A stretch of 64,000 nucleotides of DNA, from NCBI GenBank assembly GCA_000309945.1, contig CM001633.1, forward strand, positions 1,014,723 to 1,078,722. The letters are read 5' to 3'. The position numbers and the translations under genes were made by a program. Positions 4,706-27,489 of the stretch are shown piece by piece (positions within the stretch are counted from its first letter, which is position 1; each line of letters begins with the position of its first letter). This DNA comes from Leptolyngbyaceae cyanobacterium JSC-12. GTDB taxonomy: Bacteria > Cyanobacteriota > Cyanobacteriia > Leptolyngbyales > Leptolyngbyaceae. A model generated the notes under the pieces. It made no database searches and had not been told where the DNA came from. It was given only the letters and a program-made list of their open reading frames with translations.

Positions 4706-4897
4706 GTTTCAGTCTCCCACGATCAGGATTCTTCGTTTTGCGCTCACCTCCTTCACCCCTTCACCTTTTCAACTAATTCCGTTTCAGTCCCACGATCAGG
4801 ATTTTTCGTTTTGCGCAACCCTCATCTTTCTACTCCTCTACCCTTCACTTCCTGCTCGTTTCAGTCTCCCGCGATCGGGGATTTTTGGCTTTGCGCG
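4706..4897 (-). CRISPR. Three degenerate leader-distal CRISPR repeats
   Basis: Diverged copies of the array repeat start at 4706, 4781 and 4858 and end near 4744, 4817 and 4897. All keep GTTTCAGT at one end and TTTGCGC at the other, but carry substitutions (CACGATCAGG for CGCGATCGGG) and small insertions. Their spacers are about 36-40 bases and pyrimidine-rich. The bases just before copies 1 and 3 are almost identical (cttcacttcctg, then a or c, then tc). They are furthest from the leader, as expected for the oldest, decayed end. The 228 bases between the DUF928 gene and the first copy show no gene. Confidence 0.85.
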
Positions 4898-6564: not shown

Positions 6565-9500
6565 GTTTCAGTCCCGCGATCGGGATTTTGGGTTTTGCGC
6601 GTTTTATTGCGATTTTATAGCGCAATTTCCACTAAAAGAGTTTCAGTCCCGCGATCGGGATTTTGGGTTTTGCGCGGAGAAAAGCCAGCCCTTTGGTAAA
6701 TAGCAGCTCGCCTGTTTCAGTCCCGCGATCGGGATTTTGGGTTTTGCGCGCTGGGGTGCTTGGGTATGGCGATTCCTTTGGCAGACTAGTTTCAGTCCCG
6801 CGATCGGGATTTTGGGTTTTGCGCGGCCCAACCAGATTGGTTACGCCGATAACTACGGTTTCAGTCCCGCGATCGGGATTTTGGGTTTTGCGCGTTTTAT
6901 TATTTCAAGGGGAACGCTCCAGGCTCAGAACCGTTTCAGTCCCGCGATCGGGATTTTGGGTTTTGCGCGAAAGTGTAGGGCACGCCTTAGAAGAGATTTT
7001 TGGGGGTTTCAGTCCCGCGATCGGGATTTTGGGTTTTGCGCGGCAAAACTCCTAATTTACAAAACTATTTCACAACACGTTTCAGTCCCGCGATCGGGAT
7101 TTTGGGTTTTGCGCGTTCCAAAACTGTTCCAACTGTTCCGACTGTTCCAGGGTTTCAGTCCCGCGATCGGGATTTTGGGTTTTGCGCGTCTTCAGATTTG
7201 ATTTTCTGTTGTGCTAGGAACTCAAGTTTCAGTCCCGCGATCGGGATTTTGGGTTTTGCGCGGGAAGTACTTAGGGTTAAAAACTGACCCTAAGACGGGG
7301 TTTCAGTCCCGCGATCGGGATTTTGGGTTTTGCGCGAACTTGATGAGGATATGGTTAATCAGGTATTGCAAGTTTCAGTCCCGCGATCGGGATTTTGGGT
7401 TTTGCGCGTACAGTATGACAGTAAGTTCAATTTATTACTGTTATGTTTCAGTCCCGCGATCGGGATTTTGGGTTTTGCGCGTCAAGGAGGACGTCAGATA
7501 GCTGCAAGCTAAATTCCAAACTAGAGTTTCAGTCCCGCGATCGGGATTTTGGGTTTTGCGCGTTTTCGTAGCCACCCATGCTGCCGCTTTCATCTTGACA
7601 GTTTCAGTCCCGCGATCGGGATTTTGGGTTTTGCGCGTCAGCAAGATCCTGACCTTGTTGAAGCCAGGGAGCTTGTTTCAGTCCCGCGATCGGGATTTTG
7701 GGTTTTGCGCGTTCGAGCTGTAGCTAGTCTAACTGCCGATAACTCATCGTTTCAGTCCCGCGATCGGGATTTTGGGTTTTGCGCGATTAAGGATAATTGT
7801 GATGTTCCGTTAGGGAGTTAAGTTTCAGTCCCGCGATCGGGATTTTGGGTTTTGCGCGTTCTTGATGCGAATGCTCCGACTCCAAAGCTCCCCCAGTTTC
7901 AGTCCCGCGATCGGGATTTTGGGTTTTGCGCGCCAGACTTCTTGCACACCGCGTCGAGCAATCTAATCGTTTCAGTCCCGCGATCGGGATTTTGGGTTTT
8001 GCGCGCCGTTGATACCAATTCGAGCGATCTATGTAATCCGTGGTTTCAGTCCCGCGATCGGGATTTTGGGTTTTGCGCGTTTGTGGAGGTGCCTGTCAAG
8101 GTGTTTGCGGGGTGTAGTTTCAGTCCCGCGATCGGGATTTTGGGTTTTGCGCGATTGCGACTAAGAATGCAACCTTGATTACTCAGGATGTTTCAGTCCC
8201 GCGATCGGGATTTTGGGTTTTGCGCGATTTCACCGCTCTACGATTTTCTACATATTCGTCGGTTTCAGTCCCGCGATCGGGATTTTGGGTTTTGCGCGAC
8301 TTCTGAGTCAATCCCTTCGTCAATTGTTTCCGCGTTTCAGTCCCGCGATCGGGATTTTGGGTTTTGCGCGTAAATTCTGGCTTTTGGCTAATTCACTAAC
8401 AGGAAGTTTCAGTCCCGCGATCGGGATTTTGGGTTTTGCGCGTTTTTAAGAATCTGGTAGGACGTATAGAAAACATTAGTTTCAGTCCCGCGATCGGGAT
8501 TTTGGGTTTTGCGCGCGCCCGGTTGCAAGAAGCTATCAAATAGATCCACTACGTTTCAGTCCCGCGATCGGGATTTTGGGTTTTGCGCGAGAAAAAATCA
8601 TGGCACTGCCGGAAGGCGAGTTGAAAGTTTCAGTCCCGCGATCGGGATTTTGGGTTTTGCGCGGAGTACTGAAACCTAAAATTCATTGGAAAATCATCGT
8701 TTCAGTCCCGCGATCGGGATTTTGGGTTTTGCGCGGTAATTGCGACTGTCCAACCGTGCCAGCTCCGGGTGGTTTCAGTCCCGCGATCGGGATTTTGGGT
8801 TTTGCGCGGTTTTGCGTGCCGCACCAGGCGAGTGACAATTTCGTGTTTCAGTCCCGCGATCGGGATTTTGGGTTTTGCGCGAATTTGAGGACGAAACGAC
8901 GATTGAATACGATCGCTCGTTTCAGTCCCGCGATCGGGATTTTGGGTTTTGCGCGTTTTTTAACCTGGCTCACGAAGCCGCACGCTCAGGCTCGTTTCAG
9001 TCCCGCGATCGGGATTTTGGGTTTTGCGCGTGTTGGTCACATTGGTGGGGTCAACGTAGGTGTAGCCCGTTTCAGTCCCGCGATCGGGATTTTGGGTTTT
9101 GCGCGAATCCCCCCCTTGAGAAATACAAACTTGGCGTTGGGGTTTCAGTCCCGCGATCGGGATTTTGGGTTTTGCGCGTTCAGGAGCCACACCGGCTGCT
9201 TCAAGTTCGGCAGTGTTTCAGTCCCGCGATCGGGATTTTGGGTTTTGCGCGCCGATTTATCGACGTGTTGCGCGAGGTTGCCCACTTAAAGTTTCAGTCC
9301 CGCGATCGGGATTTTGGGTTTTGCGCGCCAATTCCGTCTCCGTAGCCGTCGGCGCTGCCGTCGTTTCAGTCCCGCGATCGGGATTTTGGGTTTTGCGCGC
9401 CGGGTGGGAAGGCTAACTAAAAGCTTGTTAAACATTTGTTTCAGTCCCGCGATCGGGATTTTGGGTTTTGCGCGTTGGTGATAATCGATCGCCAGGTTGA

Positions 9501-12500
9501 TCCTTGCGAAGTGTTTCAGTCCCGCGATCGGGATTTTGGGTTTTGCGCGGCAAGAGGATGCGATAAGCAGAGGTGAATATGAACGGTTTCAGTCCCGCGA
9601 TCGGGATTTTGGGTTTTGCGCGCGCAAAACCACACGTCTTTTTGAGTCAAATTTGCCAGGTCGTTTCAGTCCCGCGATCGGGATTTTGGGTTTTGCGCGA
9701 TCAAACGGAACTCGACAAATCTCGTACTCAATCCGCTGTTTCAGTCCCGCGATCGGGATTTTGGGTTTTGCGCGGATTTTTAATCAAGGAGGAAAAACTA
9801 ATGAAATCAGTGTTTCAGTCCCGCGATCGGGATTTTGGGTTTTGCGCGCCTCTAATTTCAGTTTCACACCCAAGCCACCCTGTTGTTTCAGTCCCGCGAT
9901 CGGGATTTTGGGTTTTGCGCGACTAAACAAAGGAGGAACGAATGATTGCAGTTTTGGTGTTTCAGTCCCGCGATCGGGATTTTGGGTTTTGCGCGGGTAT
10001 TTCCCCAGGTATCTCAAGGTGCGTTGCTTGTTTCAGTCCCGCGATCGGGATTTTGGGTTTTGCGCGCAACGGCCAGCCCGTTACAAGCTCTGTGATCGGT
10101 GCAGTTTCAGTCCCGCGATCGGGATTTTGGGTTTTGCGCGACAATATCGCCTCCGGACCCGTCTCCGTCTGCAAGTTTCAGTCCCGCGATCGGGATTTTG
10201 GGTTTTGCGCGTAAGGTAGAGTTGTTGGTTTACCAGCTACCCCAAAGTTTCAGTCCCGCGATCGGGATTTTGGGTTTTGCGCGTTGAGCTACTACGGCAG
10301 GCAACGACGGGAAACGGCAGTTTCAGTCCCGCGATCGGGATTTTGGGTTTTGCGCGTTTTGCCGGGTGCTAGCCCGTCCCTGCTCAGGGTCTAGCGTTTC
10401 AGTCCCGCGATCGGGATTTTGGGTTTTGCGCGCCAGGAAGAAAACGATTAATCCAGGCTTTCAACCTGTGGTTTCAGTCCCGCGATCGGGATTTTGGGTT
10501 TTGCGCGCTTGATCCGCGAGTATTAAATCTGCGTTGTCTTCCCTGTTTCAGTCCCGCGATCGGGATTTTGGGTTTTGCGCGCCTTTTTGCTCAGACGGCA
10601 CAGAAGCGATCGCGGGAGGTTTCAGTCCCGCGATCGGGATTTTGGGTTTTGCGCGTGTGCACGCAACCTATTTCACCGCTGAAAATGGTTGGTTTCAGTC
10701 CCGCGATCGGGATTTTGGGTTTTGCGCGTCCATAACCTGACCCATCGTCAGAACCTTCGTCATGGTTTCAGTCCCGCGATCGGGATTTTGGGTTTTGCGC
10801 GGGGTCGGGATATGGCGATGGCTCTGGATCGAGTTATGTTTCAGTCCCGCGATCGGGATTTTGGGTTTTGCGCGTGTTCTGGTTCTGGTTCTGGTTCGTT
10901 GTCAGCCGCGTTTCAGTCCCGCGATCGGGATTTTGGGTTTTGCGCGCGCTTTGCTTGCTCTTCGGTCTTCAGCTTGCTAGGGTTTCAGTCCCGCGATCGG
11001 GATTTTGGGTTTTGCGCGTTTCTTTTCGGCTTCCGCTGCTATCAAGGCTTCTGGTGTGTTTCAGTCCCGCGATCGGGATTTTGGGTTTTGCGCGGGGAAC
11101 TTCCATCGACACAGAAATCAGGGCATACCAGTTTCAGTCCCGCGATCGGGATTTTGGGTTTTGCGCGCAACCAGCAGTTATGCAATGCCGTGCTAGCAAG
11201 CTTAGGTTTCAGTCCCGCGATCGGGATTTTGGGTTTTGCGCGAAATATAAATCTTGAGTTTGCCATTGATGATCTCGTTTCAGTCCCGCGATCGGGATTT
11301 TGGGTTTTGCGCGGAAATGGCGACAATTATTGAAAACGGTTTTCAAGCCGTTTCAGTCCCGCGATCGGGATTTTGGGTTTTGCGCGAGGTTGAATCGCCT
11401 CACCGCTCGATCCAGTAAGGGATGTTTCAGTCCCGCGATCGGGATTTTGGGTTTTGCGCGAACTACACAGTTATAGTACACCCGTCCGGATTTGTGTTTC
11501 AGTCCCGCGATCGGGATTTTGGGTTTTGCGCGTGGGGAGTATTGCGAGCAAATTGACGCGCAATCTCGCGTTTCAGTCCCGCGATCGGGATTTTGGGTTT
11601 TGCGCGATGACGGCTACGGGAACGTTTATACCGATTATTTCAGGTTTCAGTCCCGCGATCGGGATTTTGGGTTTTGCGCGGTGGGGACATCCTGTCACCA
11701 GCGGCATTCCCTCAGTGGTTTCAGTCCCGCGATCGGGATTTTGGGTTTTGCGCGTCCCCAGGTAAGCGATCGCCCGCTGGCGCGACGGGTGGTTTCAGTC
11801 CCGCGATCGGGATTTTGGGTTTTGCGCGTTTCCGCGGCCACTTTCTCGCACACATACTCGCCAGTTTCAGTCCCGCGATCGGGATTTTGGGTTTTGCGCG
11901 TTCAGGATCTTTTTTGTCAGTGTTTAATTAATTAATTGGTTTCAGTCCCGCGATCGGGATTTTGGGTTTTGCGCGTTGAGAGATAGCCTGCGCTGCCAAG
12001 TTGAAAACTTCGTTTCAGTCCCGCGATCGGGATTTTGGGTTTTGCGCGATTCAAGGCTCCATGCAGACAGACACTATAACAGCGTGTTTCAGTCCCGCGA
12101 TCGGGATTTTGGGTTTTGCGCGCTTCTGCCCTGAGCGGGCTAACTAATGAAACAATAGTTTCAGTCCCGCGATCGGGATTTTGGGTTTTGCGCGACAGCG
12201 GATTCAACTGGACCGCGATCGCCCACAGTTGCAGTTTCAGTCCCGCGATCGGGATTTTGGGTTTTGCGCGCTGCTAGATTCCGCTGGACGTATGCCGACG
12301 AGATCCTATCGGTGTTTCAGTCCCGCGATCGGGATTTTGGGTTTTGCGCGAACTTTCGCCCCTCAATCCGATCCGGCAGGCTGTAGGTTTCAGTCCCGCG
12401 ATCGGGATTTTGGGTTTTGCGCGGTGCCCATCTACGAAACGTTGATCATTTTCCAAAAAGGTTTCAGTCCCGCGATCGGGATTTTGGGTTTTGCGCGGCA

Positions 12501-15500
12501 ACGGACTGCGCTGCCTGCTTGTTCCCCTCGATAGTTTCAGTCCCGCGATCGGGATTTTGGGTTTTGCGCGTAAGTCGCTCGATGCATTGTCCCTCCTTAA
12601 TAGCCAGTTTCAGTCCCGCGATCGGGATTTTGGGTTTTGCGCGGGTTGGAGGTGCCGCCAACCCTGGAACCCATCTCCAGTTTCAGTCCCGCGATCGGGA
12701 TTTTGGGTTTTGCGCGCGCTCGACTAATCGCCCTGGCGAGTTTCCGATTCTTGTTTCAGTCCCGCGATCGGGATTTTGGGTTTTGCGCGAGTAGAAATCC
12801 CAGCAACAGAGGATTCAGCGCTTGGTTTCAGTCCCGCGATCGGGATTTTGGGTTTTGCGCGATAACCTGTTCGCAGGAGGTGAACCCGGCACAGCCAAGT
12901 TTCAGTCCCGCGATCGGGATTTTGGGTTTTGCGCGGTACTAGATGGCTGTGGAATCATTGCTTGTCTGTCATGTTTCAGTCCCGCGATCGGGATTTTGGG
13001 TTTTGCGCGGAAGGGTATCGCCAACAGCGAAATAACAGGAGCTAAGTTTCAGTCCCGCGATCGGGATTTTGGGTTTTGCGCGCTGAATCGTTCCCCAGTG
13101 GAATGCCTTGCCCTGGTCGAGTTTCAGTCCCGCGATCGGGATTTTGGGTTTTGCGCGAACCTGTTCGCAGGAGGTGAACCCGGCACAGCCAAGTTTCAGT
13201 CCCGCGATCGGGATTTTGGGTTTTGCGCGAGTTTTGAGGGGTTTGGCGACCACACTCAAGACCAGTTTCAGTCCCGCGATCGGGATTTTGGGTTTTGCGC
13301 GGCAAAAAGGTCGAAAGGACGGGATATTTCAACGGAGTGTTTCAGTCCCGCGATCGGGATTTTGGGTTTTGCGCGTCGTGTCACTGGCGATGAAAAAAGT
13401 TTCGAGGTCAGGTTTCAGTCCCGCGATCGGGATTTTGGGTTTTGCGCGCGCGTTCTGCGGTGCGCTTATCACGGACCCGCTGCTGGTTTCAGTCCCGCGA
13501 TCGGGATTTTGGGTTTTGCGCGTTCTCTGTAGGCAAGGTGTAGACAGTTGCCAACGCCCCGTTTCAGTCCCGCGATCGGGATTTTGGGTTTTGCGCGTAG
13601 CCGATTTGATGGCCGCCAGGAAGCTCAACTACCGTGTTTCAGTCCCGCGATCGGGATTTTGGGTTTTGCGCGTGCCCCTAGCTCAAACTCGAAAACAGCG
13701 CTTAGACCAGTTTCAGTCCCGCGATCGGGATTTTGGGTTTTGCGCGACTGCTCTAATTTCCATCCTTTTACCCTTGCTTTCATGTTTCAGTCCCGCGATC
13801 GGGATTTTGGGTTTTGCGCGAATTGAAAAGCTGCGCTGGTCTGGGCGTGGCGGCTGGTTTCAGTCCCGCGATCGGGATTTTGGGTTTTGCGCGTCTGCCG
13901 CTAGGGAAATTCCGGCTCTCGAAAAACTAGCGTTTCAGTCCCGCGATCGGGATTTTGGGTTTTGCGCGCTGCACCCAACGCTGGAAGCACAAACCCATAC
14001 TCGAGTTTCAGTCCCGCGATCGGGATTTTGGGTTTTGCGCGAAATCCTAGCCGCGTGTATCGTTTCAGTCCTGCGTTTGTTTCAGTCCCGCGATCGGGAT
14101 TTTGGGTTTTGCGCGTCAAATTGCGGAACTACCGCAATTGTATCTACTGGTCCGTTTCAGTCCCGCGATCGGGATTTTGGGTTTTGCGCGTTGATTAATC
14201 CGCGCTGGTTACTGGCTCTGGCTCTTTCGTTTCAGTCCCGCGATCGGGATTTTGGGTTTTGCGCGCTTGCTCAAGGGAACCTCAAAGTTTTGAGATTCAA
14301 TAGTTTCAGTCCCGCGATCGGGATTTTGGGTTTTGCGCGTCTTGTTGCGTTTTGCCGTTGGGAACACCATGCTCACAAGTTTCAGTCCCGCGATCGGGAT
14401 TTTGGGTTTTGCGCGTTTTCTTCGGCTTCGGAACGGTAAGCAGCAAGAAGTTTCAGTCCCGCGATCGGGATTTTGGGTTTTGCGCGGAATCGTTTCCGAA
14501 ACGGACTTGAGTTTCTGAACTTGGGTTTCAGTCCCGCGATCGGGATTTTGGGTTTTGCGCGTTTGGATACAACGCTAGCTCTTAACAGCAAGCCAGGTTT
14601 CAGTCCCGCGATCGGGATTTTGGGTTTTGCGCGTTTAGCTCCTTCTTGCCGATCAGCGATCGCTCAACCTGGCGCGTTTCAGTCCCGCGATCGGGATTTT
14701 GGGTTTTGCGCGCTTTCAACCGTGGAAGTGCAACTTGTTAAAGGGTTGTTTCAGTCCCGCGATCGGGATTTTGGGTTTTGCGCGCACTCTGTTCACGGCT
14801 CATCTAATTTTGCCATTCCCCGTTTCAGTCCCGCGATCGGGATTTTGGGTTTTGCGCGCCTGCCCACTACTGGGACTACCAGGAGCGGTGGGAGGTTTCA
14901 GTCCCGCGATCGGGATTTTGGGTTTTGCGCGATTAGCAACCGTCGCCATAGCCAAAGCCATCGCCAGTTTCAGTCCCGCGATCGGGATTTTGGGTTTTGC
15001 GCGTTGAGAAAGCGGAATCGACCGCTAAGCCAGATTTTGAGTTTCAGTCCCGCGATCGGGATTTTGGGTTTTGCGCGTTGCTCCTTGCAAGTAAGAGTGC
15101 GGAAAACTGGCTTAGTTTCAGTCCCGCGATCGGGATTTTGGGTTTTGCGCGTACCGGGACTGAAAATCAGTTAATAGCTCCAATAATGTTTCAGTCCCGC
15201 GATCGGGATTTTGGGTTTTGCGCGCAGCGGGGTTTCGTCCCGATCCGCGTCAGAGGAAAGGGTTTCAGTCCCGCGATCGGGATTTTGGGTTTTGCGCGAT
15301 TGTATATGCAATCTTCAGCTGACATTGTATATTCAAGTTTCAGTCCCGCGATCGGGATTTTGGGTTTTGCGCGTCCCGATTCCAGCAGACTTTCAAGGGG
15401 AGCGTTCCGTTTCAGTCCCGCGATCGGGATTTTGGGTTTTGCGCGTTTAGAGATGTGCGGCACGGTCGTCCGAGGCGAGTTTCAGTCCCGCGATCGGGAT

Positions 15501-18500
15501 TTTGGGTTTTGCGCGTTCTACGAAAATCGGCATAGGTCAAAGAGGGAGAGGGAGGTTTCAGTCCCGCGATCGGGATTTTGGGTTTTGCGCGTGAGAGCTT
15601 TGCCCAATCACGGTGGGGCTGATGCTTGTTTCAGTCCCGCGATCGGGATTTTGGGTTTTGCGCGTTGGCAACCGCTATCTGCTGGCTTGAGACGTCGATT
15701 GTTTCAGTCCCGCGATCGGGATTTTGGGTTTTGCGCGCGTAATCCCAGGAAGTTCGTAGTGACCGCAAGCACGTTTCAGTCCCGCGATCGGGATTTTGGG
15801 TTTTGCGCGGCTGCCAGAAAGCTGGATTACAAGTCCCTTGCTGCGTTTCAGTCCCGCGATCGGGATTTTGGGTTTTGCGCGTCTCCTGTCAGGGGTTGAT
15901 ATGAGCGCTGGCTGCAGTTTCAGTCCCGCGATCGGGATTTTGGGTTTTGCGCGATTTGGCACCCGGCACCCCCGGCGTTAGCTCTGTGGTTTCAGTCCCG
16001 CGATCGGGATTTTGGGTTTTGCGCGTACTCGCCTAGAAGCTGGGTCTGTTTGTGTGATCTGTGGTTTCAGTCCCGCGATCGGGATTTTGGGTTTTGCGCG
16101 CTGGACAAAGCCTTCGAAGTTGCTCTTGAGAAGCGAGTAGTTTCAGTCCCGCGATCGGGATTTTGGGTTTTGCGCGAATCCAGGCGCTGAAAACAATTAC
16201 AGCCATAATCAGTTTCAGTCCCGCGATCGGGATTTTGGGTTTTGCGCGCTATGCCTCCGATCCCTTCCGCCAGGAATACCTAGATTGTTTCAGTCCCGCG
16301 ATCGGGATTTTGGGTTTTGCGCGTCCGGATCCATGCCCATCGCCGTAGGAGCACCCATGGCCGTAGGTTTCAGTCCCGCGATCGGGATTTTGGGTTTTGC
16401 GCGACCCCAAAAAAAATAAAGGTATAGAGCAATAAATGCTCGTTTCAGTCCCGCGATCGGGATTTTGGGTTTTGCGCGCACTGAACTCCTAAGTACTTAT
16501 GCATCTGAATGGACGTTTCAGTCCCGCGATCGGGATTTTGGGTTTTGCGCGTCTAGAGCATTCAGCCAGGTTAGTGATTCGTTAGAGGTTTCAGTCCCGC
16601 GATCGGGATTTTGGGTTTTGCGCGCCGATGATAGAGGAGATATTCACCCCAGATGCCAAGTGTTTCAGTCCCGCGATCGGGATTTTGGGTTTTGCGCGTG
16701 GGAATAATTTTTGCCATGTCCTTTGAGTTGATTGTTTCAGTCCCGCGATCGGGATTTTGGGTTTTGCGCGGATCGCGCTGTCTGCAATATCAGCGGTTGT
16801 GACGGGTTTCAGTCCCGCGATCGGGATTTTGGGTTTTGCGCGTCTTGAGAGTGTAAAAGCGTAAAGTCTAAAAAACAGTTTCAGTCCCGCGATCGGGATT
16901 TTGGGTTTTGCGCGGTCCAGCCAGTTTTCGATATCCAACCCGCCTTCGTCAGTTTCAGTCCCGCGATCGGGATTTTGGGTTTTGCGCGAACTCATTTGGG
17001 TTCATGCCTTGTGTCGAGGTGCTCGTTTCAGTCCCGCGATCGGGATTTTGGGTTTTGCGCGCTTTTCAGCTCACCGACGATTGGCAAGGTGCTTTCCACT
17101 GATGGTTTCAGTCCCGCGATCGGGATTTTGGGTTTTGCGCGCTGGGTACTTCCCCGCCCAGTGGTAGCCCGCCAATCACCCGTTTCAGTCCCGCGATCGG
17201 GATTTTGGGTTTTGCGCGCCGATCCCGGAAGCGATCGAGGCCAACTTCAACAGCTGAAGGTTTCAGTCCCGCGATCGGGATTTTGGGTTTTGCGCGATCA
17301 AAGTCTCTGCTCCGGCAGAAATCTGGGCGCAGTTTCAGTCCCGCGATCGGGATTTTGGGTTTTGCGCGGTAGGGTTGATTATCTGCCTCCAACTGGTTCA
17401 GGGTAGTTTCAGTCCCGCGATCGGGATTTTGGGTTTTGCGCGGAATCCTTAGATTATGGAAACCAATTCTCCCCAGCCCGTTTCAGTCCCGCGATCGGGA
17501 TTTTGGGTTTTGCGCGCTTGAAAAAACTAGGTTTGCTTAAAAGTTAGGCACGTTTCAGTCCCGCGATCGGGATTTTGGGTTTTGCGCGCATCCCCTGAGC
17601 CAGCAGCGAGGGATGGTTGGGCGGGTTTCAGTCCCGCGATCGGGATTTTGGGTTTTGCGCGCCGATCCAGGAAATTCTTGCGAATATCTCCCTGATCGTT
17701 TCAGTCCCGCGATCGGGATTTTGGGTTTTGCGCGAAGCTAAAAAACAACCTACCTTCACGGATCGACGTGGAGTTTCAGTCCCGCGATCGGGATTTTGGG
17801 TTTTGCGCGTTTACCTCACTAGGGCTGACGATATCTCCTGTCTCGTTTCAGTCCCGCGATCGGGATTTTGGGTTTTGCGCGGCGGGACTGAAACATCGTT
17901 GCTGATTGAATCGTCGCGCAAGTTTCAGTCCCGCGATCGGGATTTTGGGTTTTGCGCGAATCCTGACCACCGAGGTTATCGACGTGCTTGGGATGCATGT
18001 TTCAGTCCCGCGATCGGGATTTTGGGTTTTGCGCGATAGGTAAACAGCGCTTCCCGTTTTTCACGGGCAGTGTTTCAGTCCCGCGATCGGGATTTTGGGT
18101 TTTGCGCGTAAATGTCATCGGGGTAGTTCCTGCGTTACCCTCCGTGTTTCAGTCCCGCGATCGGGATTTTGGGTTTTGCGCGTAGCCGATCCGATTGATA
18201 TCGTCAACCAGATCGGCTAATTTGTTTCAGTCCCGCGATCGGGATTTTGGGTTTTGCGCGCCTGCGTTACCCTCCGTCACGACTGGGGAGTTGTCGTTTC
18301 AGTCCCGCGATCGGGATTTTGGGTTTTGCGCGATTCCCAGCAACGTGCATTCCCTGGTGCTGGGCGTAGTTTCAGTCCCGCGATCGGGATTTTGGGTTTT
18401 GCGCGTCAGGCTTTGGCTATGGTGATGGCTCAGGCTACGAGGTTTCAGTCCCGCGATCGGGATTTTGGGTTTTGCGCGAGGCTGAGGACGCCAAACCTAG

Positions 18501-21219
18501 AGCGTCCGGACGGCGTTTCAGTCCCGCGATCGGGATTTTGGGTTTTGCGCGCTGCGAGAACAGCGGCAGTCCGCGCAGGCTTTGCATGTTTCAGTCCCGC
18601 GATCGGGATTTTGGGTTTTGCGCGCTCGATCCCAGACTGGGTGTAGCCTGCTCCTGGGATGTTTCAGTCCCGCGATCGGGATTTTGGGTTTTGCGCGCCT
18701 TCGACTGCCACCCTTCAGGATGCAGAGCGGGCAGTTTCAGTCCCGCGATCGGGATTTTGGGTTTTGCGCGATTCCGCCCCACTCTTCACCATATCCACAC
18801 CCATTAGTTTCAGTCCCGCGATCGGGATTTTGGGTTTTGCGCGTTCTCACGTGGTATACGCGGGAATCGAAGATCGGGGAGTTTCAGTCCCGCGATCGGG
18901 ATTTTGGGTTTTGCGCGGGGTACGGAGATGGCTTTGAAGAATGTTTTGCAGACGTTTCAGTCCCGCGATCGGGATTTTGGGTTTTGCGCGAAGCCCCAGC
19001 CCGAACCGACGTGCGGACAGTGCAGGGTTTCAGTCCCGCGATCGGGATTTTGGGTTTTGCGCGACGCAGTTCCCACGGGGGATGCCGCGCTGCTGGAGCA
19101 CCGGAGTTTCAGTCCCGCGATCGGGATTTTGGGTTTTGCGCGCTGGGCGAGATACGCGCTTTGGCTATTGGGGGGCGATTCTTGTTTCAGTCCCGCGATC
19201 GGGATTTTGGGTTTTGCGCGCTTTGCAGAGTTGCAACAATCCATCGAGGTCACAGCCGTTTCAGTCCCGCGATCGGGATTTTGGGTTTTGCGCGAAGGTG
19301 TGTTGCTGTGGGGAACGTCGCATGGTAGGGTTTCAGTCCCGCGATCGGGATTTTGGGTTTTGCGCGACAACTTTCGTTCCTTCTGACATTCCGGCATCTG
19401 TAGTTTCAGTCCCGCGATCGGGATTTTGGGTTTTGCGCGCCCTTTAATCCGAATGAAGTTGAGTGGATTGGTACTCAAGTTTCAGTCCCGCGATCGGGAT
19501 TTTGGGTTTTGCGCGGCGCGATCGCACCGGGTGAGCAGGATCAGCCAGGGCGTTTCAGTCCCGCGATCGGGATTTTGGGTTTTGCGCGAAATCGTCGCGT
19601 CAAACGCACCGGTGCCTACTGCCAGTTTCAGTCCCGCGATCGGGATTTTGGGTTTTGCGCGCACCAGTGGCGATACTGTACGTCAAAAAATGACATAGTT
19701 TCAGTCCCGCGATCGGGATTTTGGGTTTTGCGCGCCGGCGTTACCTATGGCACGGACACCAACCCAAACGTTTCAGTCCCGCGATCGGGATTTTGGGTTT
19801 TGCGCGGTCGGGAAGCCTGTCTACGAAGTCGAGCCAGAAATGAGTTTCAGTCCCGCGATCGGGATTTTGGGTTTTGCGCGTGTCGTGCTGTTTGTTCCAG
19901 TCGGTTCCGAGCCGGTTCGTTTCAGTCCCGCGATCGGGATTTTGGGTTTTGCGCGCGGAGCGATCCGGGCATTCACAAGGGAGCCAAATATGAAGTTTCA
20001 GTCCCGCGATCGGGATTTTGGGTTTTGCGCGTTTCCTCCACTGAGCCATAACACACCGCCATCTGGCAAGTTTCAGTCCCGCGATCGGGATTTTGGGTTT
20101 TGCGCGCTATGGCACGGACACCAACCCAAACGCTGGCGCAAGTTTCAGTCCCGCGATCGGGATTTTGGGTTTTGCGCGTCGGAGTATGGGCGCTTTCTCC
20201 AGCGCGTGAGCTGGTTCGTTTCAGTCCCGCGATCGGGATTTTGGGTTTTGCGCGCGAATCCGCCCACGGCTATGGCGACGGCTTTTATGGGTTTCAGTCC
20301 CGCGATCGGGATTTTGGGTTTTGCGCGGTGGGAACCGGGACTGGGCAAGGACAACAGGGCTGGTTTCAGTCCCGCGATCGGGATTTTGGGTTTTGCGCGT
20401 CCCTGACCCTGAATATCCAACGGCACCAGAGGAAGGTTTCAGTCCCGCGATCGGGATTTTGGGTTTTGCGCGGGAGTTTGGCTACCCCACTGCATTGTCT
20501 ATTGGTTCGTTTCAGTCCCGCGATCGGGATTTTGGGTTTTGCGCGAGATGGCTAGACCTGTTTTGAACGTGTACCAATGGTTTCAGTCCCGCGATCGGGA
20601 TTTTGGGTTTTGCGCGCCCAGAAATTTCTTGCTTTGTCGCTCAAACTAGAGAGTGTTTCAGTCCCGCGATCGGGATTTTGGGTTTTGCGCGCCGTCGGCG
20701 CAGGGTTCCAGGAGGTAATCGTTTCGGGCTGGTTTCAGTCCCGCGATCGGGATTTTGGGTTTTGCGCGATCTGTAAATTTTGCTGCAAGCATTGCCAACC
20801 GAGCGTTTCAGTCCCGCGATCGGGATTTTGGGTTTTGCGCGACTGTCTCATCCATGAGCGTGTTAAAACTCATGTTTGGACGTTTCAGTCCCGCGATCGG
20901 GATTTTGGGTTTTGCGCGTACCACTACTTCAGGCGGAAGTGGTGACACCGGTGTGTTTCAGTCCCGCGATCGGGATTTTGGGTTTTGCGCGCTGCACCGG
21001 AATTACCAGAAAACCGTTATTGAATAAGGAAGGTTTCAGTCCCGCGATCGGGATTTTGGGTTTTGCGCGCCTGCCCAATTCGATCTTCAGATGGATTTTT
21101 GCCCAGATAGTTTCAGTCCCGCGATCGGGATTTTGGGTTTTGCGCGTACAGATTCGGATCGTAGGGGAGTTTTCTTCGGGTAGTTTCAGTCCCGCGATCG
21201 GGATTTTGGGTTTTGCGCG
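6565..21219 (-). CRISPR. Type I-D CRISPR array, about 199 repeats
   Basis: I counted 199 copies of a 37-base repeat, the first at 6565-6601 and the last at 21183-21219, with 198 spacers mostly 34-40 bases (up to 44). On the plus strand each repeat begins GTTTCAGTCCCGCGATCGGG and ends GGGTTTTGCGCG. The complement ends GCGGGACTGAAAC, like known cyanobacterial I-D repeats, with a TCCCG/CGGGA hairpin and an ACTGAAAC handle. Transcription is therefore inferred right to left, away from cas2. I noticed no variant repeats. Unusual spacers include duplicates (12862, 13158), overlapping pairs (18109/18261, 19735/20107) and repeat-containing ones (14042, 15152, 17882). Protein-like readings across this region are artefacts of a repeat that is open in several frames. 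Confidence 0.98.
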
Positions 21220-21436
21220 TCCGCTGGCTGGAAAGGCGGTGGTGATAGGGTTTCATAGCTCATTTTGGCAAACCTCGATTGAAGCGTCCAACTTTGAGTA
21301 CAAAACTTTATCATTGTCCTTTCCATTTATTTCAACCAATTCATCAAAGTATTGATTTTTCAAGGTTCTGGCGATTTTGGCGAACCTCCCAGGGAATTTT
21401 CCCTCGCTTCGGTTTGCCAAACTTGGGATGTTACCA
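21220..21436 (-). promoter_or_regulatory. CRISPR leader
   Basis: About 217 non-coding bases lie between the last perfect repeat and the cas2 stop. This is the expected place for the array promoter and adaptation signals. The leader contains an inverted repeat, TTGGCAAACC at 21265-21274 and GGTTTGCCAA at 21411-21420, plus a related direct copy, ATTTTGGCGAACCTCC at 21374-21389. On the crRNA strand a half-repeat-like ATGAAAC occurs 30 bases upstream of the first repeat. It may be a decayed repeat end or an integration signal. The promoter itself is not resolved. Confidence 0.75.
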
Positions 21437-21730
21437 TCATAAAACGATTACTTCCTCTTGGCGAGGCTTTTCTGAACCATAGACAATTGTTCGTTTTACT
21501 GCTCCTGCATCTAACACATAAATGCGGACAGAATCTTCATCAGACTTAATTAGTTTCTCAATTCGTGTTTGAAGTTTAGCAAACTGCATTGACGTGAGAA
21601 AACATTCAAAGACACTAAACTGAGTCCATTTTCCATAACCCGATAACAACTTATGCAACCGAGTTCGGCGTTTATTCGCTGGCTTAGTATCAGGTAGATC
21701 GTAAATGATCAGGTAGAAAAGGGTAGTCAT
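21437..21730 (-). CDS. cas2: Cas2, CRISPR adaptation endonuclease
   Basis: The 97-residue product starts at ATG 21730 (MTTLFYLIIYDLPDTKPANK). An upstream in-frame TTG would add eleven unlikely residues. The opening beta strand ends in the conserved YDLPD, whose aspartate marks the Cas2 ferredoxin-like dimer. KRRTRLHKLLSGYGKWTQFSVFEC is the typical helix and second strand, and the tail carries SVRIYVLD. Cas2 dimers bridge two Cas1 dimers and hold the prespacer during integration at the leader-repeat junction. It is the last cas gene, next to the leader. About 140 bases separate it from cas1, including a purine/pyrimidine-biased stretch with no other gene. Confidence 0.95.
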   Translation of the reverse strand: MTTLFYLIIYDLPDTKPANKRRTRLHKLLSGYGKWTQFSVFECFLTSMQFAKLQTRIEKLIKSDEDSVRIYVLDAGAVKRTIVYGSEKPRQEEVIVL

Positions 21731-21872
21731 GAATGAATTGGGAAATGGGAAGGAAATGGGCAAGTTGAGAAGATGGGCAGATGAGGGAGATGAGGAAGGT
21801 TGAGGAGATGGAGGAGGCAGAGAAGAGAAGGGCCATAAAACCCTCCCCCACTCTCCTGCACCCTGCCTCTTG

Positions 21873-22850
21873 CTATCTCACCGCCAACGGCACATACTTT
21901 ACCCCTTCTTGCAAATACTTTGCCAATAGCCGTGCCTGAAGTTCAATAGCCCGGCGATAAGTACAGCGATATTGAAAAACTGGATGCGTAAATTCATCCA
22001 TCATTTTGCGTTCAAACGCCTGCAAAAACGTTTTGCGTCCAGTCTCCGACAGCCGGTAAGCACCCAAACTCTGGGTAAAATCCTTCGGCTGAATCTCCCG
22101 ATTGTTAATGACTGTTAGCACAACACTGTCTGCCACTAACGGACGAAACTCCTCCATCAAATCGAGCACTAGCGCTGGTTGCCCCCGGCTCACCTCATGT
22201 AAATAGCCAATAAACGGATCTAGCCCTGCCATATGCACGGCCGCCGTCACCTGGACTCGCACCAATCCATACGCAAAACTCAGCAAAGAATTCACCGGAT
22301 CAGTCGGTGGACGGCGGTTTCGTCCGGCAAAATTCCACCTGGCATCAAGCATTTTTGACCACGTGCCAAAATATTCCCGTGCTGCCAGCCCTTCAACTCC
22401 TCGCACCTGATCAATTGTCGCTTGTGTTTTGACGGCTCCTTTTCTCAGTTTTAATGGGTTCTCCTTTTGTCCATGCCGATATAGCACCCCATACTGGTTG
22501 TGAATTTTGGTAGTGACGATCGCCTTCACAAATTCCAATCGCTTTGCTTCATCAAAATAAGTGCTATACTGCGCCAATCGTAATTGGCCATTCCGCGAAT
22601 ATCCTGGCATCGCCCCTCCTAAATATTTGCCAAAGCTCGATAGATAATGCACTGGCAATCCCAATTCCAGCGCATAAACTAAGGCATCTCCCGTAATCCG
22701 AGGGTTCCCCATCAACACTACTTGTTCCAGCGTTTGAGCAGCAATCGTCTTTTTCTGCCAGGAACCATCTTCCTGCTTCAAAGACACAGTGAAAGCTTCG
22801 TAAGTCTTTTCAATAACGGCATCAGGTTGGGTGACATAGAGGATAGACAT
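21873..22850 (-). CDS. cas1: Cas1, CRISPR integrase
   Basis: The product is 325 residues from ATG 22850 (MSILYVTQPDAVIEKTYEAF). A longer reading begins in the intergenic region and was discarded. The N-terminal beta domain is followed by the alpha-helical catalytic domain with LSFAYGLVRVQVTAAVHMAG, LDPFIGYLHEVSRGQPALVL and DLMEEFRPLVAD. These carry the metal-binding His and acidic residues of the family. Cas1 catalyses the two transesterifications that insert a spacer between leader and first repeat. It lies 83 bases downstream of cas4 and 142 upstream of cas2. The length and motifs fit the I-D/I-B branch that works with a separate Cas4. Confidence 0.96.
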   Translation of the reverse strand: MSILYVTQPDAVIEKTYEAFTVSLKQEDGSWQKKTIAAQTLEQVVLMGNPRITGDALVYALELGLPVHYLSSFGKYLGGAMPGYSRNGQLRLAQYSTYFDEAKRLEFVKAIVTTKIHNQYGVLYRHGQKENPLKLRKGAVKTQATIDQVRGVEGLAAREYFGTWSKMLDARWNFAGRNRRPPTDPVNSLLSFAYGLVRVQVTAAVHMAGLDPFIGYLHEVSRGQPALVLDLMEEFRPLVADSVVLTVINNREIQPKDFTQSLGAYRLSETGRKTFLQAFERKMMDEFTHPVFQYRCTYRRAIELQARLLAKYLQEGVKYVPLAVR

Positions 22851-22933
22851 AGGAATTCTTGAGGTAATGGTTTTTGAAGCAATCAGGGGAACCAAAGTGG
22901 GGAAGAAGAAGGAGAAGCAAGAGAGAATGCTAT

Positions 22934-23548
22934 TCACTCCCAGATTAGATTTGCAGGTCTTCCCTCACTTCCCCCACCTCTGAGCACTCTCACCTCCTCC
23001 GGCAAACAAATTCCCCGCAAACTACACGCCATGCATTTCTTTCGATGGTCAATCGGAGCTGGTATTGGTTGCGTTACGGCTAGTTGTGCAGCGGCGATCG
23101 CCTCCTCTGTGGCTTGCCTTAATTGAGCAGTTAATAATACCCGTTCCCGCCGCCGATTCGCATGATAGAAAATCTCTCCATAAGCAATCTGCTGCCCTGT
23201 TCGTTCCTCTAAACACAAGCCAGCAGCACACAGTTGAAAATGATCATTCAAATACTTGCCCATCTTCCCTTTCTTATACTCAACCGGAATCAAAGACCCA
23301 TTGCATTCTTCAACAGCATCAATCACACCAGAAACCAGGAGGCGATCGCTCCATACCCACTGTTGTTGATAAATTCGGGTGTCGCCCTCTTGCAGGATAG
23401 TTGCTTCGTTAATGTTGCGGTGCAGGTGGTTGCCTAGCACGGTGTGTTCATTGTCAGCCCATTCACCGAGGACATACTCTAGATAAAATCGGCGCGGGCA
23501 ATATTCCCAGGCATTCAAACAGGCAAGCGGCAAGTAATCTTCATTCAT
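22934..23548 (-). CDS. cas4: Cas4, PAM-processing nuclease
   Basis: The product is 204 residues from ATG 23548. The Fe-S cluster ligands are visible as C17 (EYCPRRFYL) and C172, C175 and C181 (KKCMACSLRGIC). The RecB-like nuclease core has D77 (VSGVIDAVE) and the ExK pair E90/K92 (IPVEYKKGK). Cas4 trims prespacers and enforces PAM choice and orientation with Cas1-Cas2. That fits the duplicated spacers in this array that share one edge but differ at the other. It is 22 bases downstream of cas6 and about 80 upstream of cas1, in the same transcript by position. Confidence 0.95.
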   Translation of the reverse strand: MNEDYLPLACLNAWEYCPRRFYLEYVLGEWADNEHTVLGNHLHRNINEATILQEGDTRIYQQQWVWSDRLLVSGVIDAVEECNGSLIPVEYKKGKMGKYLNDHFQLCAAGLCLEERTGQQIAYGEIFYHANRRRERVLLTAQLRQATEEAIAAAQLAVTQPIPAPIDHRKKCMACSLRGICLPEEVRVLRGGGSEGRPANLIWE

Positions 23549-23570
23549 ACAAAAGTTTTGCCTCAGTGAA

Positions 23571-24431
23571 TTAATTGCTTAATGCAATGCGCCGTGCCAT
23601 TCCCATTCCCATTGGGGTTTTGCGTCCAACTCCGGCATAAAGTGCAAAGTCTGCTAACGTGTTGATTTGTTTAATCGTAAGCGGATCAACCTCGCCTAAA
23701 ATTTGAAAAGTGAGTTCACCAACACAACCAATTAACTTACTGCGGCTATCGGCAACAATTTCCGTGCGAATTTCAAAGAAACTTGGATAGATTGAATCAA
23801 TAATTGTGGTAGGAAATGGCAACGCACTGTAATAATTCCATCGTTTGAGTAAGCTCTTAAACACTAACTCCCTTGTTGGCAATGCACAGTCATAATCTGA
23901 TATGCGAAATGTAGTTGGAGTGCAAAAGGATAGATGAATTTTGCGATCGCAATCCGATGCGCGCTCATACAGTTGAGCATAGGTTGCTACATTCACCCAC
24001 GGTTGTGACGCTTGCGGCGTTCCCAACACACTCACTACTTCTAAATCCGCTGCACCCAGATGCCAGGATTTTTGAGTACCCAAATTTAACCATAAATGGG
24101 CTAGCTTTCCAAATAAAGCATCATCTAACAAGGAAATGCGCCACCAACATGGAGTTCCCTCAGAGATGGGGCGATCGTGCTTAAATTGAAGCGTCAAAGG
24201 AGCAGACACAGGCAAACTGGTTTTGCTTCCTCGATTTCCCCATCTTCTGTCTACCTGTAACGGACTTAAGGTAAAGGCTTTCTCAGAAGATTGATGGTGT
24301 AATGTAACAGCAAGCTCTGAATCAACGGATTTGACTAATTCCAGAAACAGTGCATGGAGATGCCGACCACTTAAGTTAGACGTGGGAATAGGCGCTTTGG
24401 GTAAAAGGTTGAGAACCAGACTGTAGGGCAT
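23571..24431 (-). CDS. cas6: Cas6, pre-crRNA endoribonuclease
   Basis: The product is 286 residues from ATG 24431 (MPYSLVLNLLPKAPIPTSNL). The N-terminal RAMP fold has GRHLHALFLELVKSVD, whose histidine is a candidate general acid/base. The C-terminal half ends in the glycine-rich loop ADFALYAGVGRKTPMGMGMA, diagnostic of Cas6. It should cut the array transcript 3' of the repeat hairpin and leave the 8-base ACTGAAAC handle. It sits between csc1 and cas4. A 532-base gap separates it from csc1, so it may have its own transcript start or rely on read-through past the hairpins there. Confidence 0.93.
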   Translation of the reverse strand: MPYSLVLNLLPKAPIPTSNLSGRHLHALFLELVKSVDSELAVTLHHQSSEKAFTLSPLQVDRRWGNRGSKTSLPVSAPLTLQFKHDRPISEGTPCWWRISLLDDALFGKLAHLWLNLGTQKSWHLGAADLEVVSVLGTPQASQPWVNVATYAQLYERASDCDRKIHLSFCTPTTFRISDYDCALPTRELVFKSLLKRWNYYSALPFPTTIIDSIYPSFFEIRTEIVADSRSKLIGCVGELTFQILGEVDPLTIKQINTLADFALYAGVGRKTPMGMGMARRIALSN

Positions 24432-24963
24432 AAAATTTGAGTAGTTCCAGAATACTTAAGGGTGAACTAATGCAGATCAATAACGATGAAAAGGGACGGG
24501 ATCTTACTAAGAAGCTCAAAGCAAACCTGCCTATCAAGCCCTTTCCTACCAAAACAAATTCGCTTGCTGGCAATCCCAAATAGTCGAAGCTTTGCGGCTG
24601 AGTTACTAGCTGAGCGATCGCAGGTGAAGAAGAAAGGTGGGAAAACGGGTTTAGTCATTGGTGTTCGGAGAGGTCAGGCTGGTTACAAGCTGGGTTAAAT
24701 CCACCCAAATACACCACTTGATCTGGTTGACTGACAAATCTCCTGACCACCCACTGCATCACCAGGAAATCAATTTCCTGGCTCCTAGCCAAAGTCATCT
24801 AAAGACGACTAGACAAGAGTTTCAGTCCACTTGAATGGACTTGCGCTGCTAGCCCTAAAATTTATTTTAGGGTAGAAATTTTAGAACGGGTTGACAACAG
24901 AGCCATGAGCCTTTCAGAACTTTTGTCGGTCAATCAGGGGATGATCATTGGTTCAAAGCTATT
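24432..24963. repeat. cas6-csc1 gap with a four-hairpin REP-like cluster
   Basis: This 532-base gap contains consecutive palindromes at 24762-24781 (CCAGGAAATCAATTTCCTGG), 24792-24809, 24824-24839 (GTCCACTTGAATGGAC) and 24853-24872 (CCCTAAAATTTATTTTAGGG). The same hairpin types occur in reverse order beside csc2 and next to the RAYT gene, so this is a dispersed copy of its REP-type substrate. The rest (24432-24760) has no convincing gene. A 37-codon plus-strand frame at 24472 exists but has little support. Confidence 0.75.
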
Positions 24964-25671
24964 TTAATTCCCAAATTCATATTGCATACGGGCAGGAAGC
25001 TTTAGGTCTGGTAACTCCTCAAAGGTGTAATGTTCGCCAATCATTCGCACGTTCCGAATTAAGCTGACAGGTAGCATATTGATTGTGTCGTAACTCAAAA
25101 CCTGATTCGTAAACATCACATCCAAAGGATTCAAAGGAAGATCAATGACCACCTCCTCGGTTTTAGAAGATCTGGTAGTGAGTGGTTGAGTAATAATCTC
25201 TGCTTTACTTGCCCACTTGCCGATGCGAATCCACCGAGGAAGGGCAAGATCTGTTTCAGAGACGACAAAAAACTCAAACTGACTTTCAGGAGAAATTTCC
25301 TTGGTTCTGCCGAATCCAGGAACATTTCGCTCCATCTTTTCCATTTCAACATGGTAGTTGTTATTGGCATACTTCCAAGTATTTAAGATACTTGCGTAAT
25401 GGATTGCTCGTGCCGGTGTAACATAGATTCCTCGCTGGTTAAGTAGAGTCAGATGTTGCTTATACTTAGGCACCTGCTCTGCACAGAAGTAAGAGTAGGA
25501 ATCTTCCTCGGCAACTGTAGTAGCATAGCGGCTACTATCAACTAATCCCAGTGCATAAGTTAATGCATAGTTATGCAGGACAGGCTCAGTCTCGTAGAGC
25601 CGCCCAATTTCACGAGTAGCAAAATAGAGGCTGTCATGCAGTTCTAACGTACATCGATAGATAATGGTCAT
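24964..25671 (-). CDS. csc1: Csc1 (Cas5d-type), type I-D effector subunit
   Basis: The product is 235 residues, MTIIYRCTLELHDSLYFATR then EIGRLYETEPVLHNYALTYALGLVD. This N-terminus is characteristic of Csc1, the Cas5 homologue of type I-D. In the effector it caps the 5' handle of the crRNA and contacts the large subunit Cas10d. The start ATG is 6 bases after the csc2 stop, so the two are translationally linked. The sequence appears intact through YTFEELPDLKLPARMQYEFGN at the end. Csc1 proteins are usually 200-250 residues. Confidence 0.93.
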   Translation of the reverse strand: MTIIYRCTLELHDSLYFATREIGRLYETEPVLHNYALTYALGLVDSSRYATTVAEEDSYSYFCAEQVPKYKQHLTLLNQRGIYVTPARAIHYASILNTWKYANNNYHVEMEKMERNVPGFGRTKEISPESQFEFFVVSETDLALPRWIRIGKWASKAEIITQPLTTRSSKTEEVVIDLPLNPLDVMFTNQVLSYDTINMLPVSLIRNVRMIGEHYTFEELPDLKLPARMQYEFGN

Positions 25672-25677
25672 CTGCTT

Positions 25678-26715
25678 CTACTCCGATGCGGCTGCGGTTG
25701 TTTTCTTGCTTCCTTTCTTATTCTTGTCTGTGGTCGGCTTGAAAATGTATTTTTGAGCATATGCGACTGATTCTGCATTCGCTTGAGTAAGCATTTTCTT
25801 CAATTGTGTTTCATTACTGGTAATTGCTTTTACTTCTGCTAGTAGCGCTTCTAAGTCATCCCCCATCAAATCAGTATGTGGAATGCATTCTTCACTCATT
25901 AGTTGAACCATTGCTTCCTGTGCTGCGCTTAAGACCTGATCTTCGTTCAATGGGTCTGGAGCCTGAATTTGATTCTTTTCAGTCATCAAGTCATAAATCT
26001 TCTGTGTCCAGCGAAGATTACTGACAATCTCGCCATCGGCAAAAATAACTCCAACTAATTCATTGCGGACGCGACCTGTGCGAGTAGTTTGTGCCCCATA
26101 ATGACGAGTTCTCAAAATATTGTTGAGAACATAAAGGAATCCTGCTTCTGTTGGGTCTTTCAGTGTGATAATGCTGGGAAAAAAGACCTGGGGCAAGATG
26201 TGATCTTGACTGTTGATACGACTGGTAACTTCTCCTTGCCGACTCATCGTGCCGTTCTCAAAAGGAGCATTGAGGGTGAAGTTCAAGTGTGAATCATCGA
26301 ATGGGGTGATGGAGTACGCTGTATCAACTACAACCTTAGATTTCTCAGAGCCAGCATCACCGATCGCAAATCCGTATAAGATGCAATCAGGTGTGGTTTT
26401 ACTGAAGTCTACGTTGTAATCACACTTGTCCCAATCCCCAATCTGATAGCTACGAAGCAATTCGCGTCCCGTTAGCCGCTCAGGACTCGACTGCTTGCGT
26501 TTAAACATTGCTAACCGACTGATAATTTTTCGGCTTTCTGGGTTGTCCTTTTTCATGCCTGCATGAACTCGTGCCCGATTCAGTTCACCATCCGTTTGGA
26601 ATAGCGGATAGGATTCTGTGACTCGAACCGTGATGAAGTGAGCATACTTACCCATCGGTTTTGCAGGGATTTCAGTGTGGAAATGTTTGGCATCAACAGT
26701 TTTTAGAAAGGACAT
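25678..26715 (-). CDS. csc2: Csc2 (Cas7d-type), type I-D backbone subunit
   Basis: The product is 345 residues from ATG 26715 (MSFLKTVDAKHFHTEIPAKP). It is the RAMP-fold backbone protein that forms the helical filament along the crRNA spacer. Family landmarks include FITVRVTESYPLFQTDGELN, LLRSYQIGDWDKCDYNVDFS, DCILYGFAIGDAGSEKSKVV and HYGAQTTRTGRVRNELVGVI. The C-terminal tail is lysine-rich (KNKKGSKKTTAAASE). It is followed by csc1 after 6 bases. Upstream, a 300-base tandem repeat and a transposase separate it from cas10d, so its ribosome-binding region is next to strong hairpins. Confidence 0.95.
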   Translation of the reverse strand: MSFLKTVDAKHFHTEIPAKPMGKYAHFITVRVTESYPLFQTDGELNRARVHAGMKKDNPESRKIISRLAMFKRKQSSPERLTGRELLRSYQIGDWDKCDYNVDFSKTTPDCILYGFAIGDAGSEKSKVVVDTAYSITPFDDSHLNFTLNAPFENGTMSRQGEVTSRINSQDHILPQVFFPSIITLKDPTEAGFLYVLNNILRTRHYGAQTTRTGRVRNELVGVIFADGEIVSNLRWTQKIYDLMTEKNQIQAPDPLNEDQVLSAAQEAMVQLMSEECIPHTDLMGDDLEALLAEVKAITSNETQLKKMLTQANAESVAYAQKYIFKPTTDKNKKGSKKTTAAASE

Positions 26716-26723
26716 GATTTGTC

Positions 26724-27071
26724 TCCAAGTTGAAAGATTCGTAAGTGAATAGTGGGCTTACCGGTTTTGCCCAGAACTGAAGTTCCGGGCTGATAGGGAA
26801 AGTCCATTCAAATGGACTGGTAAATTAGTCCTCTTGAGAGGACTTTAGCTATGAGCCAGGAAATTGATTTCCTGGCGGATGACAACGTTTTGGTGCATCC
26901 CTCTAAGTTGAAAGAAGATTGATGGGTTTACCTGCTTTGCCTAGAACTGAAGTTCCGGGCTGATAGGGAAAGTCCATTCAAATGGACTGGTAAATTAGTC
27001 CTCTTGAGAGGACTTTAGCTATGAGCCAGGAAATTGATTTCCTGGTAGATGACAACGTTTTGGTGCATCCT
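26724..27071. repeat. Tandem 170-bp duplication of REP-like hairpins
   Basis: Two copies lie head to tail, about 26724-26900 and 26901-27071. From CAGAACTGAAGTTCCGGGC (26772) onward they match at an offset of 170 bases, with only a few differences over more than 120 bases. Each contains four palindromes: a GAAGTTC stem, AGTCCATTCAAATGGACT, AGTCCTCTTGAGAGGACT and CCAGGAAATTGATTTCCTGG. The right copy overlaps the 3' end of the transposase gene, so the left copy carries a remnant of that tail. The cluster forms the region upstream of csc2 in the cas transcript. Confidence 0.85.
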
Positions 27072-27483: not shown

Positions 27484-27489
27484 TATTTG

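Follow-up and report, generated by a model that had tools for sequence, protein, structure and literature searches.

The type I-D locus of JSC-12

The genome of Leptolyngbyaceae cyanobacterium JSC-12 is a single contig of 5.53 Mb. The stretch of 64,000 nucleotides analyzed here (the window, to which all coordinates refer) carries a type I-D CRISPR-Cas locus. Its array (6565-21219, minus strand) extends over 14.7 kb and is built of 199 identical 37-nt repeats, reading CGCGCAAAACCCAAAATCCCGATCGCGGGACTGAAAC in the crRNA sense, and of 198 spacers of 32-44 nt; its leader side is the right end. Also on the minus strand lie cas2d (21437-21763), cas1d (21873-22937), cas4d (22934-23548), cas6d (23571-24431), cas5d/csc1 (24964-25671), cas7d/csc2 (25678-26715), cas10d (27490-30918) and cas3d (31044-33173), and for each of them the best match was a PADLOC model of the I-D subtype. 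The genes by which a type I-D locus is recognized (cas10d, cas3d, csc1/cas5d, csc2/cas7d and cas6d) are all present, and the adaptation genes adjoin the array. The I-D label given in the preliminary description is thus correct, with the proteins from Cas2d to Cas3d encoded at 21437-33173. An ORF of 154 amino acids (27019-27483, minus strand), without PADLOC match, is located between cas7d and cas10d, and a gene for a WYL/WCX-domain protein (33617-34486), a candidate I-D regulator, adjoins the cas genes.

The JSC-12 repeat ends with GGGACTGAAAC in the crRNA sense, as do the repeats of 15 of the 16 other arrays compared, the remaining one ending with GGGATTGAAAC. The array is found downstream of cas1-cas2 on the same strand. 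The same arrangement was observed at other I-D loci, where the array starts at least about 0.8 kb into the plus-strand stretches on the cas1-cas2 side. Since these loci place repeats ending with GGGACTGAAAC after cas1-cas2, the crRNA sense was assigned to the minus strand and the leader to the right end. Spacers 86 and 90, identical at the crRNA 5' end but not at the 3' end, agree with this orientation and with the side of the PAM. An Rfam scan of positions 17000-22000 gave no match.

About 1.7 kb past the leader-distal end of the array, three diverged repeat copies (starting at 4706, 4781 and 4858; 4706-4897 altogether) follow one another at intervals of 75-77 bp, separated by pyrimidine-rich sequence. 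They could represent a decayed array remnant or relict. A second I-D-like array was also sought in the genome, and the three near matches to the repeat start that were inspected proved to be unrelated single matches.

Anatomy of spacer 154

Spacer 154 (17882-17921, minus strand) is the 154th of the 198 spacers when counted along the plus strand and the 45th from the leader side. It is 40 nt long and reads TTGCGCGACGATTCAATCAGCAACGATGTTTCAGTCCCGC in the crRNA sense. On the plus strand, the same positions read GCGGGACTGAAAC, then ATCGTTGCTGATTGAATCGT, then CGCGCAA. The first segment (17882-17894) is the exact reverse complement of repeat bases 1-13; it is flush with one end of the spacer and corresponds to the PAM-distal end of the guide. 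The last segment (17915-17921) is the exact reverse complement of repeat bases 31-37, and is flush with the other end, which is the seed end of the guide. The interior between them (17895-17914) is 20 nt long. As the crRNA strand is the minus strand, the guide therefore reads TTGCGCG, 20 nt, then GTTTCAGTCCCGC. The preliminary description, which had reported a spacer starting with the complement of repeat bases 1-13, ending with CGCGCAA, with both matches flush and about 20 bases enclosed, was exact on these points. The repeats on either side (17845-17881, transcript-downstream, and 17922-17958, transcript-upstream; both minus strand) are intact, since all 199 repeats of the array are identical.

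By simple arithmetic, the chance of finding 20 prescribed end bases among 198 spacers is approximately 198/4^20, or 2e-10. For the 13-nt repeat match taken on its own, an order-2 Markov null model trained on the spacers (500 replicates) gave p = 0.008 for its presence in one spacer. The anatomy was also compared with that of 792 distinct I-D spacers (807 including duplicates) from 17 I-D arrays, namely the JSC-12 array, three Picosynechococcus plasmid stretches and 13 genome loci. A flush repeat match of at least 6 nt was detected in three of the 792. Spacer 154 is the only inverse case and bears such matches at both ends, of 7 and 13 nt; the other two, both from one array, have a 7-nt same-sense match at one end each. 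Its length is ordinary for the JSC-12 array (7/198 spacers are 40 nt long), and no other spacer there has more than 8 nt in common with its interior. Thus, the unusual anatomy of spacer 154 is real, and it is unique within the 792 distinct I-D spacers.

Other spacers of the array

Repeat matches of 10-11 nt are present in three more JSC-12 spacers (55, 102 and 117). Including spacer 154, four of the 198 spacers contain a repeat match of at least 10 nt (null mean 0.46, p = 0.004), which is a mild excess; elsewhere, the count was one in 594 other distinct I-D spacers. When spacers were scored against the reversed repeat as a control, the counts were 0 in the JSC-12 array and 1 elsewhere. The match in spacer 55 overlies a CGATCG motif and may be due to chance. 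Spacers 102 (14042-14078) and 117 (15152-15187) each contain 10-11 nt of the conserved GGGACTGAAAC repeat end, in opposite senses, and their cores (22 and 25 bases) had no match in the viral contig collection (viral_contigs).

Three pairs of spacers overlap: 86 and 90 (12862-12898 and 13158-13192) by 35 nt, 157 and 159 (18109-18145 and 18261-18295) by 17 nt, and 179 and 184 (19735-19769 and 20107-20141) by 25 nt. To judge from these shared stretches, it is as if one element had been sampled repeatedly. A GGCTATGGCGAYGG-like motif is common to several spacers (14932-14966, 18406-18441, 20255-20290 and others), and spacer 114 has 14 nt in common with spacer 161 and with spacer 186. The spacers with this motif perhaps reflect repeated targeting of a glycine-rich repetitive gene.

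Probable nature of the source and predicted PAM position

The anatomy of spacer 154 requires a source in which two repeats lie head to tail, separated by 20 bp, which corresponds to TTGCGCGACGATTCAATCAGCAACGATGTTTCAG with both repeats extended. It supports the earlier proposal that the crRNA would match a repeat-(20 nt)-repeat unit. A solitary repeat as source is ruled out, because the two repeat ends are needed head to tail, 20 bp apart.

If such a unit is assumed to be made of the host repeat, the protospacer starts 7 bases before the repeat end and is preceded by GTT. The I-D PAM is reported as GTN in Synechocystis and GTH in Microcystis, and a complex was solved with GTT (PMC10212523). When offsets 0-27 were scanned, a GTN triplet was present at offset 7 alone, that is, at the observed offset, and the opposite strand gave ATC. 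This result presupposes that the source repeat and the host repeat are identical, and only the two ends of the source repeat are recorded in the spacer. Moreover, the offset test is a single post hoc event, worth about 1 in 28. The overlap of spacers 157 and 159 puts GTG ahead of spacer 157, in keeping with the assigned strand and PAM side, and that of spacers 179 and 184 puts AGC, not GTN, ahead of spacer 179, so PAM fidelity in this array is not absolute. Because a repeat-20-repeat unit places GTT before the protospacer, a real acquisition from an array-like unit is likely. The preliminary description had proposed acquisition from an array, or from a mini-array or solitary repeat on a phage or plasmid; the array-like unit thus gains support, and the solitary repeat is eliminated.

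The 20-nt interior is shorter than every I-D spacer measured. All 807 of these were 31-47 nt long, and for acquired I-D spacers 35 nt is described as the commonest length, with 5 to 6 nt of spread (PMC10212523). Measured against 31-47 nt, the interior does not have the length of a normal spacer in an array unit, and the source unit would therefore itself have been aberrant. It could have been an array unit with an internal deletion, the product of an abnormal insertion, or an element of non-standard type. The short interior thus counts against a plain array source and leaves room for a decoy element.

Searches for the source

In the JSC-12 genome, a search for the interior 20-mer with up to 3 mismatches returned spacer 154, as the single exact copy, and two places with 3 mismatches. 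The pattern TTGCGCG-(5 to 31)-GTTTCAG had five matches in the genome; two of them are inside spacers 37 and 102, two are at sites without repeats, and spacer 154 alone joins the two repeat ends in order. The host's own array as it stands, which had been suggested as a source, is thus not supported, no second repeat junction of this kind being present in the genome. Among 386 cyanobacterial genomes drawn evenly from the phylum, only JSC-12 itself contained the 40-mer (up to 3 mismatches), and among 42 genomes of the family only JSC-12 itself contained the 37-nt repeat (up to 3 mismatches).

Searches of wider collections gave the same picture. The interior 20-mer had no exact match in viral_contigs or in genome_contigs. 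The repeat-spacer-repeat stretch had no blastn match in 50,697 phage records, and the whole array had none in the phage records at megablast sensitivity. Against 72,556 plasmids, blastn with the repeat-spacer-repeat stretch returned five records, four from Picosynechococcus and one from Rhizobium. The three records inspected (Picosynechococcus) contain I-D-type arrays whose repeats are related to that of JSC-12 yet different. In viral_contigs, TTGCGCG-(15 to 45)-GTTTCAGTCCC matched 12 loci; all were inspected and none had a surrounding repeat. In genome_contigs, GGGACTGAAAC-(15 to 45)-CGCGCAAAAC matched six loci, of which five were without repeat and one (L061, from an Oscillatoriales MAG) was the true edge of an array whose repeat is related and whose spacer is of normal length.

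The repeat itself was also looked for in viral_contigs. The I-D core AATCCCGNNNNCGGGACTGAAAC (compatible, on visual comparison, with 11 of the 17 I-D repeats) had no match there, nor did a narrower I-D repeat-core pattern or the 18-base repeat end. A different cyanobacterial repeat family served as positive control, and its core matched 7 viral contigs. L091 contained five copies of this core, and L093 and L090 two each, one of those in L090 with a mismatch. Therefore the negative result for the I-D repeat is informative within viral_contigs. Single copies of the control core were seen in L088, L089, L092 and L094, and the contigs L088-L094 are candidates for virus-borne mini-arrays or repeat mimics.

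Altogether, at the sensitivities of these searches, the source of spacer 154 was found neither in the JSC-12 genome nor in the 386 cyanobacterial genomes, and the phage, plasmid, viral and GTDB collections did not contain it either. The phage or RNA-anti-CRISPR source put forward in the preliminary description finds no database support, the 20-mer, the 18-base repeat end and both I-D cores being absent from the viral contigs. The 40-mer was not seen in an ordinary phage gene either, an occurrence that the same description had set against its own reading. A literature search yielded no report of spacers that originate from CRISPR arrays or target repeats; subscription journals were thinly covered, and this is weak evidence of absence.

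Expected behavior of guide 154

Guide 154 starts with TTGCGCG, and each of the 199 repeats of its own array presents GTT followed by TTGCGCG. The contiguous seed match at these repeats is 7 nt at 152 of them, 8 nt at 38, 9 nt at eight and 10 nt at one. Counting PAM plus 7-nt sites on both strands of the window, guide 154 has 201, and the next highest spacer has 3. Its best full-length identity at a repeat of its own array is 22/40. For the E. coli type I-E system, binding is described from 5 bp, interference and priming as needing more than 18 bp, and short binding as inert (PMC5904413). By analogy, guide 154 would be expected to bind at its own array and leave it uncut.

The predicted folding energy of the repeat-154-repeat stretch is the second lowest of 198. 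The hairpin probability predicted for the downstream repeat (17845-17881) is 0.02, the lowest of 198 (mean 0.92), and that of the upstream repeat is 0.97. Processing at 17845-17881, which serves both crRNA 154 and crRNA 153, is predicted to suffer because the hairpin is predicted to be lost. Guide 154 is probably weak, given the predicted disruption of the repeat hairpin and the PAM plus seed matches to all 199 repeats. Spacer 154 was kept through 44 later acquisitions, which fits with a harmless guide.

Origin of spacer 154

The simplest reading is a PAM-guided capture of an array-like repeat-20-repeat unit. We consider it somewhat better than an even bet that spacer 154 was captured by the host's own I-D adaptation machinery from an aberrant CRISPR-array unit that has since been lost, be it in its own array, in that of a sister strain or on a plasmid. 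The adaptation proteins (Cas4-Cas1-Cas2) would have taken up DNA with two identical or nearly identical repeats, head to tail and 20 bp apart. The cut would have been set by the GTT within one repeat copy, and from there the 40-bp fragment would have extended across the 20 bp and on into the second repeat copy. Most probably, the carrier would have been a CRISPR array with an abnormally short or internally deleted unit, and the candidates are the host array near its active end, the array of a sister strain or a plasmid-borne I-D array. The unit would then have been lost through recombination between identical repeats or through attack by the new guide. The capture step is suggested by the anatomy and the PAM; we infer the array source, the loss of the unit and a guide that now does little.

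Capture is favored by the two-ended anatomy, which is wanting in the 791 other distinct I-D spacers, and an array source by the plasmid-borne I-D arrays with related repeats in Picosynechococcus. Published acquisition experiments bear on both sides. An acquisition hotspot upstream of CRISPR-1 is reported in E. coli (PMC10011333), and PMC7521656 cites two further cases, P. furiosus, with hotspots at its active CRISPR loci, and H. volcanii, with hotspots close to two arrays during mating. However, the latter paper's own experiment showed no hotspot at arrays, which counts against the favored reading.

A fair second to array capture is a mini-array on a phage that had borrowed the host repeat and is now targeted by the host; possible but unsupported, it appears unlikely. 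Archaeal viruses such as SPV1 and SPV2 are reported to carry mini-arrays with host-type repeats (PMC6858448), and cyanophage N-1 to carry and transcribe an array of five repeats of the DR5 family (PMC4916379). In viral_contigs, at least three of the 7 contigs with the control core had two or more copies of it. Against this, the I-D repeat patterns and the interior 20-mer had no match in viral_contigs, the repeat-spacer-repeat stretch and the whole array had none in the phage records searched, and the spacers of N-1 are given as 29-37 bp, not 20 (PMC4916379).

It is a little more doubtful still that an ordinary spacer acquired its present ends within the array, where template switching or fold-back copying would have replaced the original ones with sequence from the repeats on either side. 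Such an event could explain why each end of spacer 154 is the inverse of the ends of the neighboring repeats and why an outside source was not found. However, it requires two independent switches that would have left both flanking repeats intact, and none of the 791 other distinct I-D spacers has even one inverse end of at least 6 nt. The GTT at offset 7 is predicted by I-D capture and not by a rearrangement in place, for which it would be a coincidence.

Improbable, in our view, is a mobile element infecting this lineage in which two copies of the host's I-D repeat flank a 20-nt stub and form a decoy or a short-guide unit, recorded by the host as a spacer. Its specific form, an RNA-anti-CRISPR-type decoy in which two repeats and a non-guiding stub would tie up Cas proteins, is quite improbable. 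A 20-nt interior, being abnormally short for an I-D spacer, would be in keeping with a stub that does not guide, and repeat-mimicking RNAs are widespread, with 2,103 solitary repeat units reported on viral sequences and 90 on plasmids (PMC10651486). But the known RNA anti-CRISPRs (Racrs) are solitary repeats, whereas the source needed here has two copies, and no copy was found in any of the viral, genome contig, phage or plasmid collections searched. Finally, chance or an assembly error is very improbable. In their favor, 14.7 kb of identical repeats are difficult to assemble, and repeat matches of 10-11 nt also occur in spacers 55, 102 and 117, that of spacer 55 lying over the common CGATCG motif. 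But the likelihood calculated above for the two ends argues against chance, and a simple inversion error would not have left both flanking repeats whole.

If the array-capture reading is true, spacer 154 would be a fixed natural record of the CRISPR adaptation complex using array DNA through a PAM internal to the repeat. The frequency with which arrays take spacers from arrays, and the way in which cells tolerate the resulting guides, would become testable questions. Because it combines a PAM with a 7-10 nt seed at 199 repeats, guide 154 would also be a natural probe of whether seed-only binding by Cascade is harmless. If the source was instead a mobile element, hosts would immunize themselves against repeat-carrying parasites, and a repeat-20-repeat decoy or short-guide element would make this a case of adaptive immunity against a counter-defense element derived from CRISPR.

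Comparison with known systems

Cyanobacteria also harbor CRISPR-associated transposons (CASTs) of type I-D, whose guide length is described as flexible (PMC11406308), a feature in which they resemble the short-guide unit considered here. A CAST origin was considered and left aside for lack of any transposon evidence for spacer 154. Racrs are alike in that mobile DNA bears a copy of the host repeat; in contrast, a solitary repeat cannot yield both ends in order, and JSC-12 shows no sign of an inhibitor. The mini-arrays of viruses (SPV1 and SPV2 of Sulfolobales, cyanophage N-1) are short repeat-spacer-repeat units outside a main array and thus a possible type of source. They differ in that no virus with the JSC-12 repeat was found in viral_contigs and in that the interior is 20 nt here, against the 29-37 bp stated for N-1.

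The closest likeness under the favored reading is to array-associated acquisition in E. coli, P. furiosus and H. volcanii, where array DNA likewise gives rise to spacers through the ordinary adaptation proteins and a normal PAM. In contrast to these experimental hotspots, JSC-12 would present a fixed natural spacer spanning repeat, interior and repeat, whose source unit is gone.
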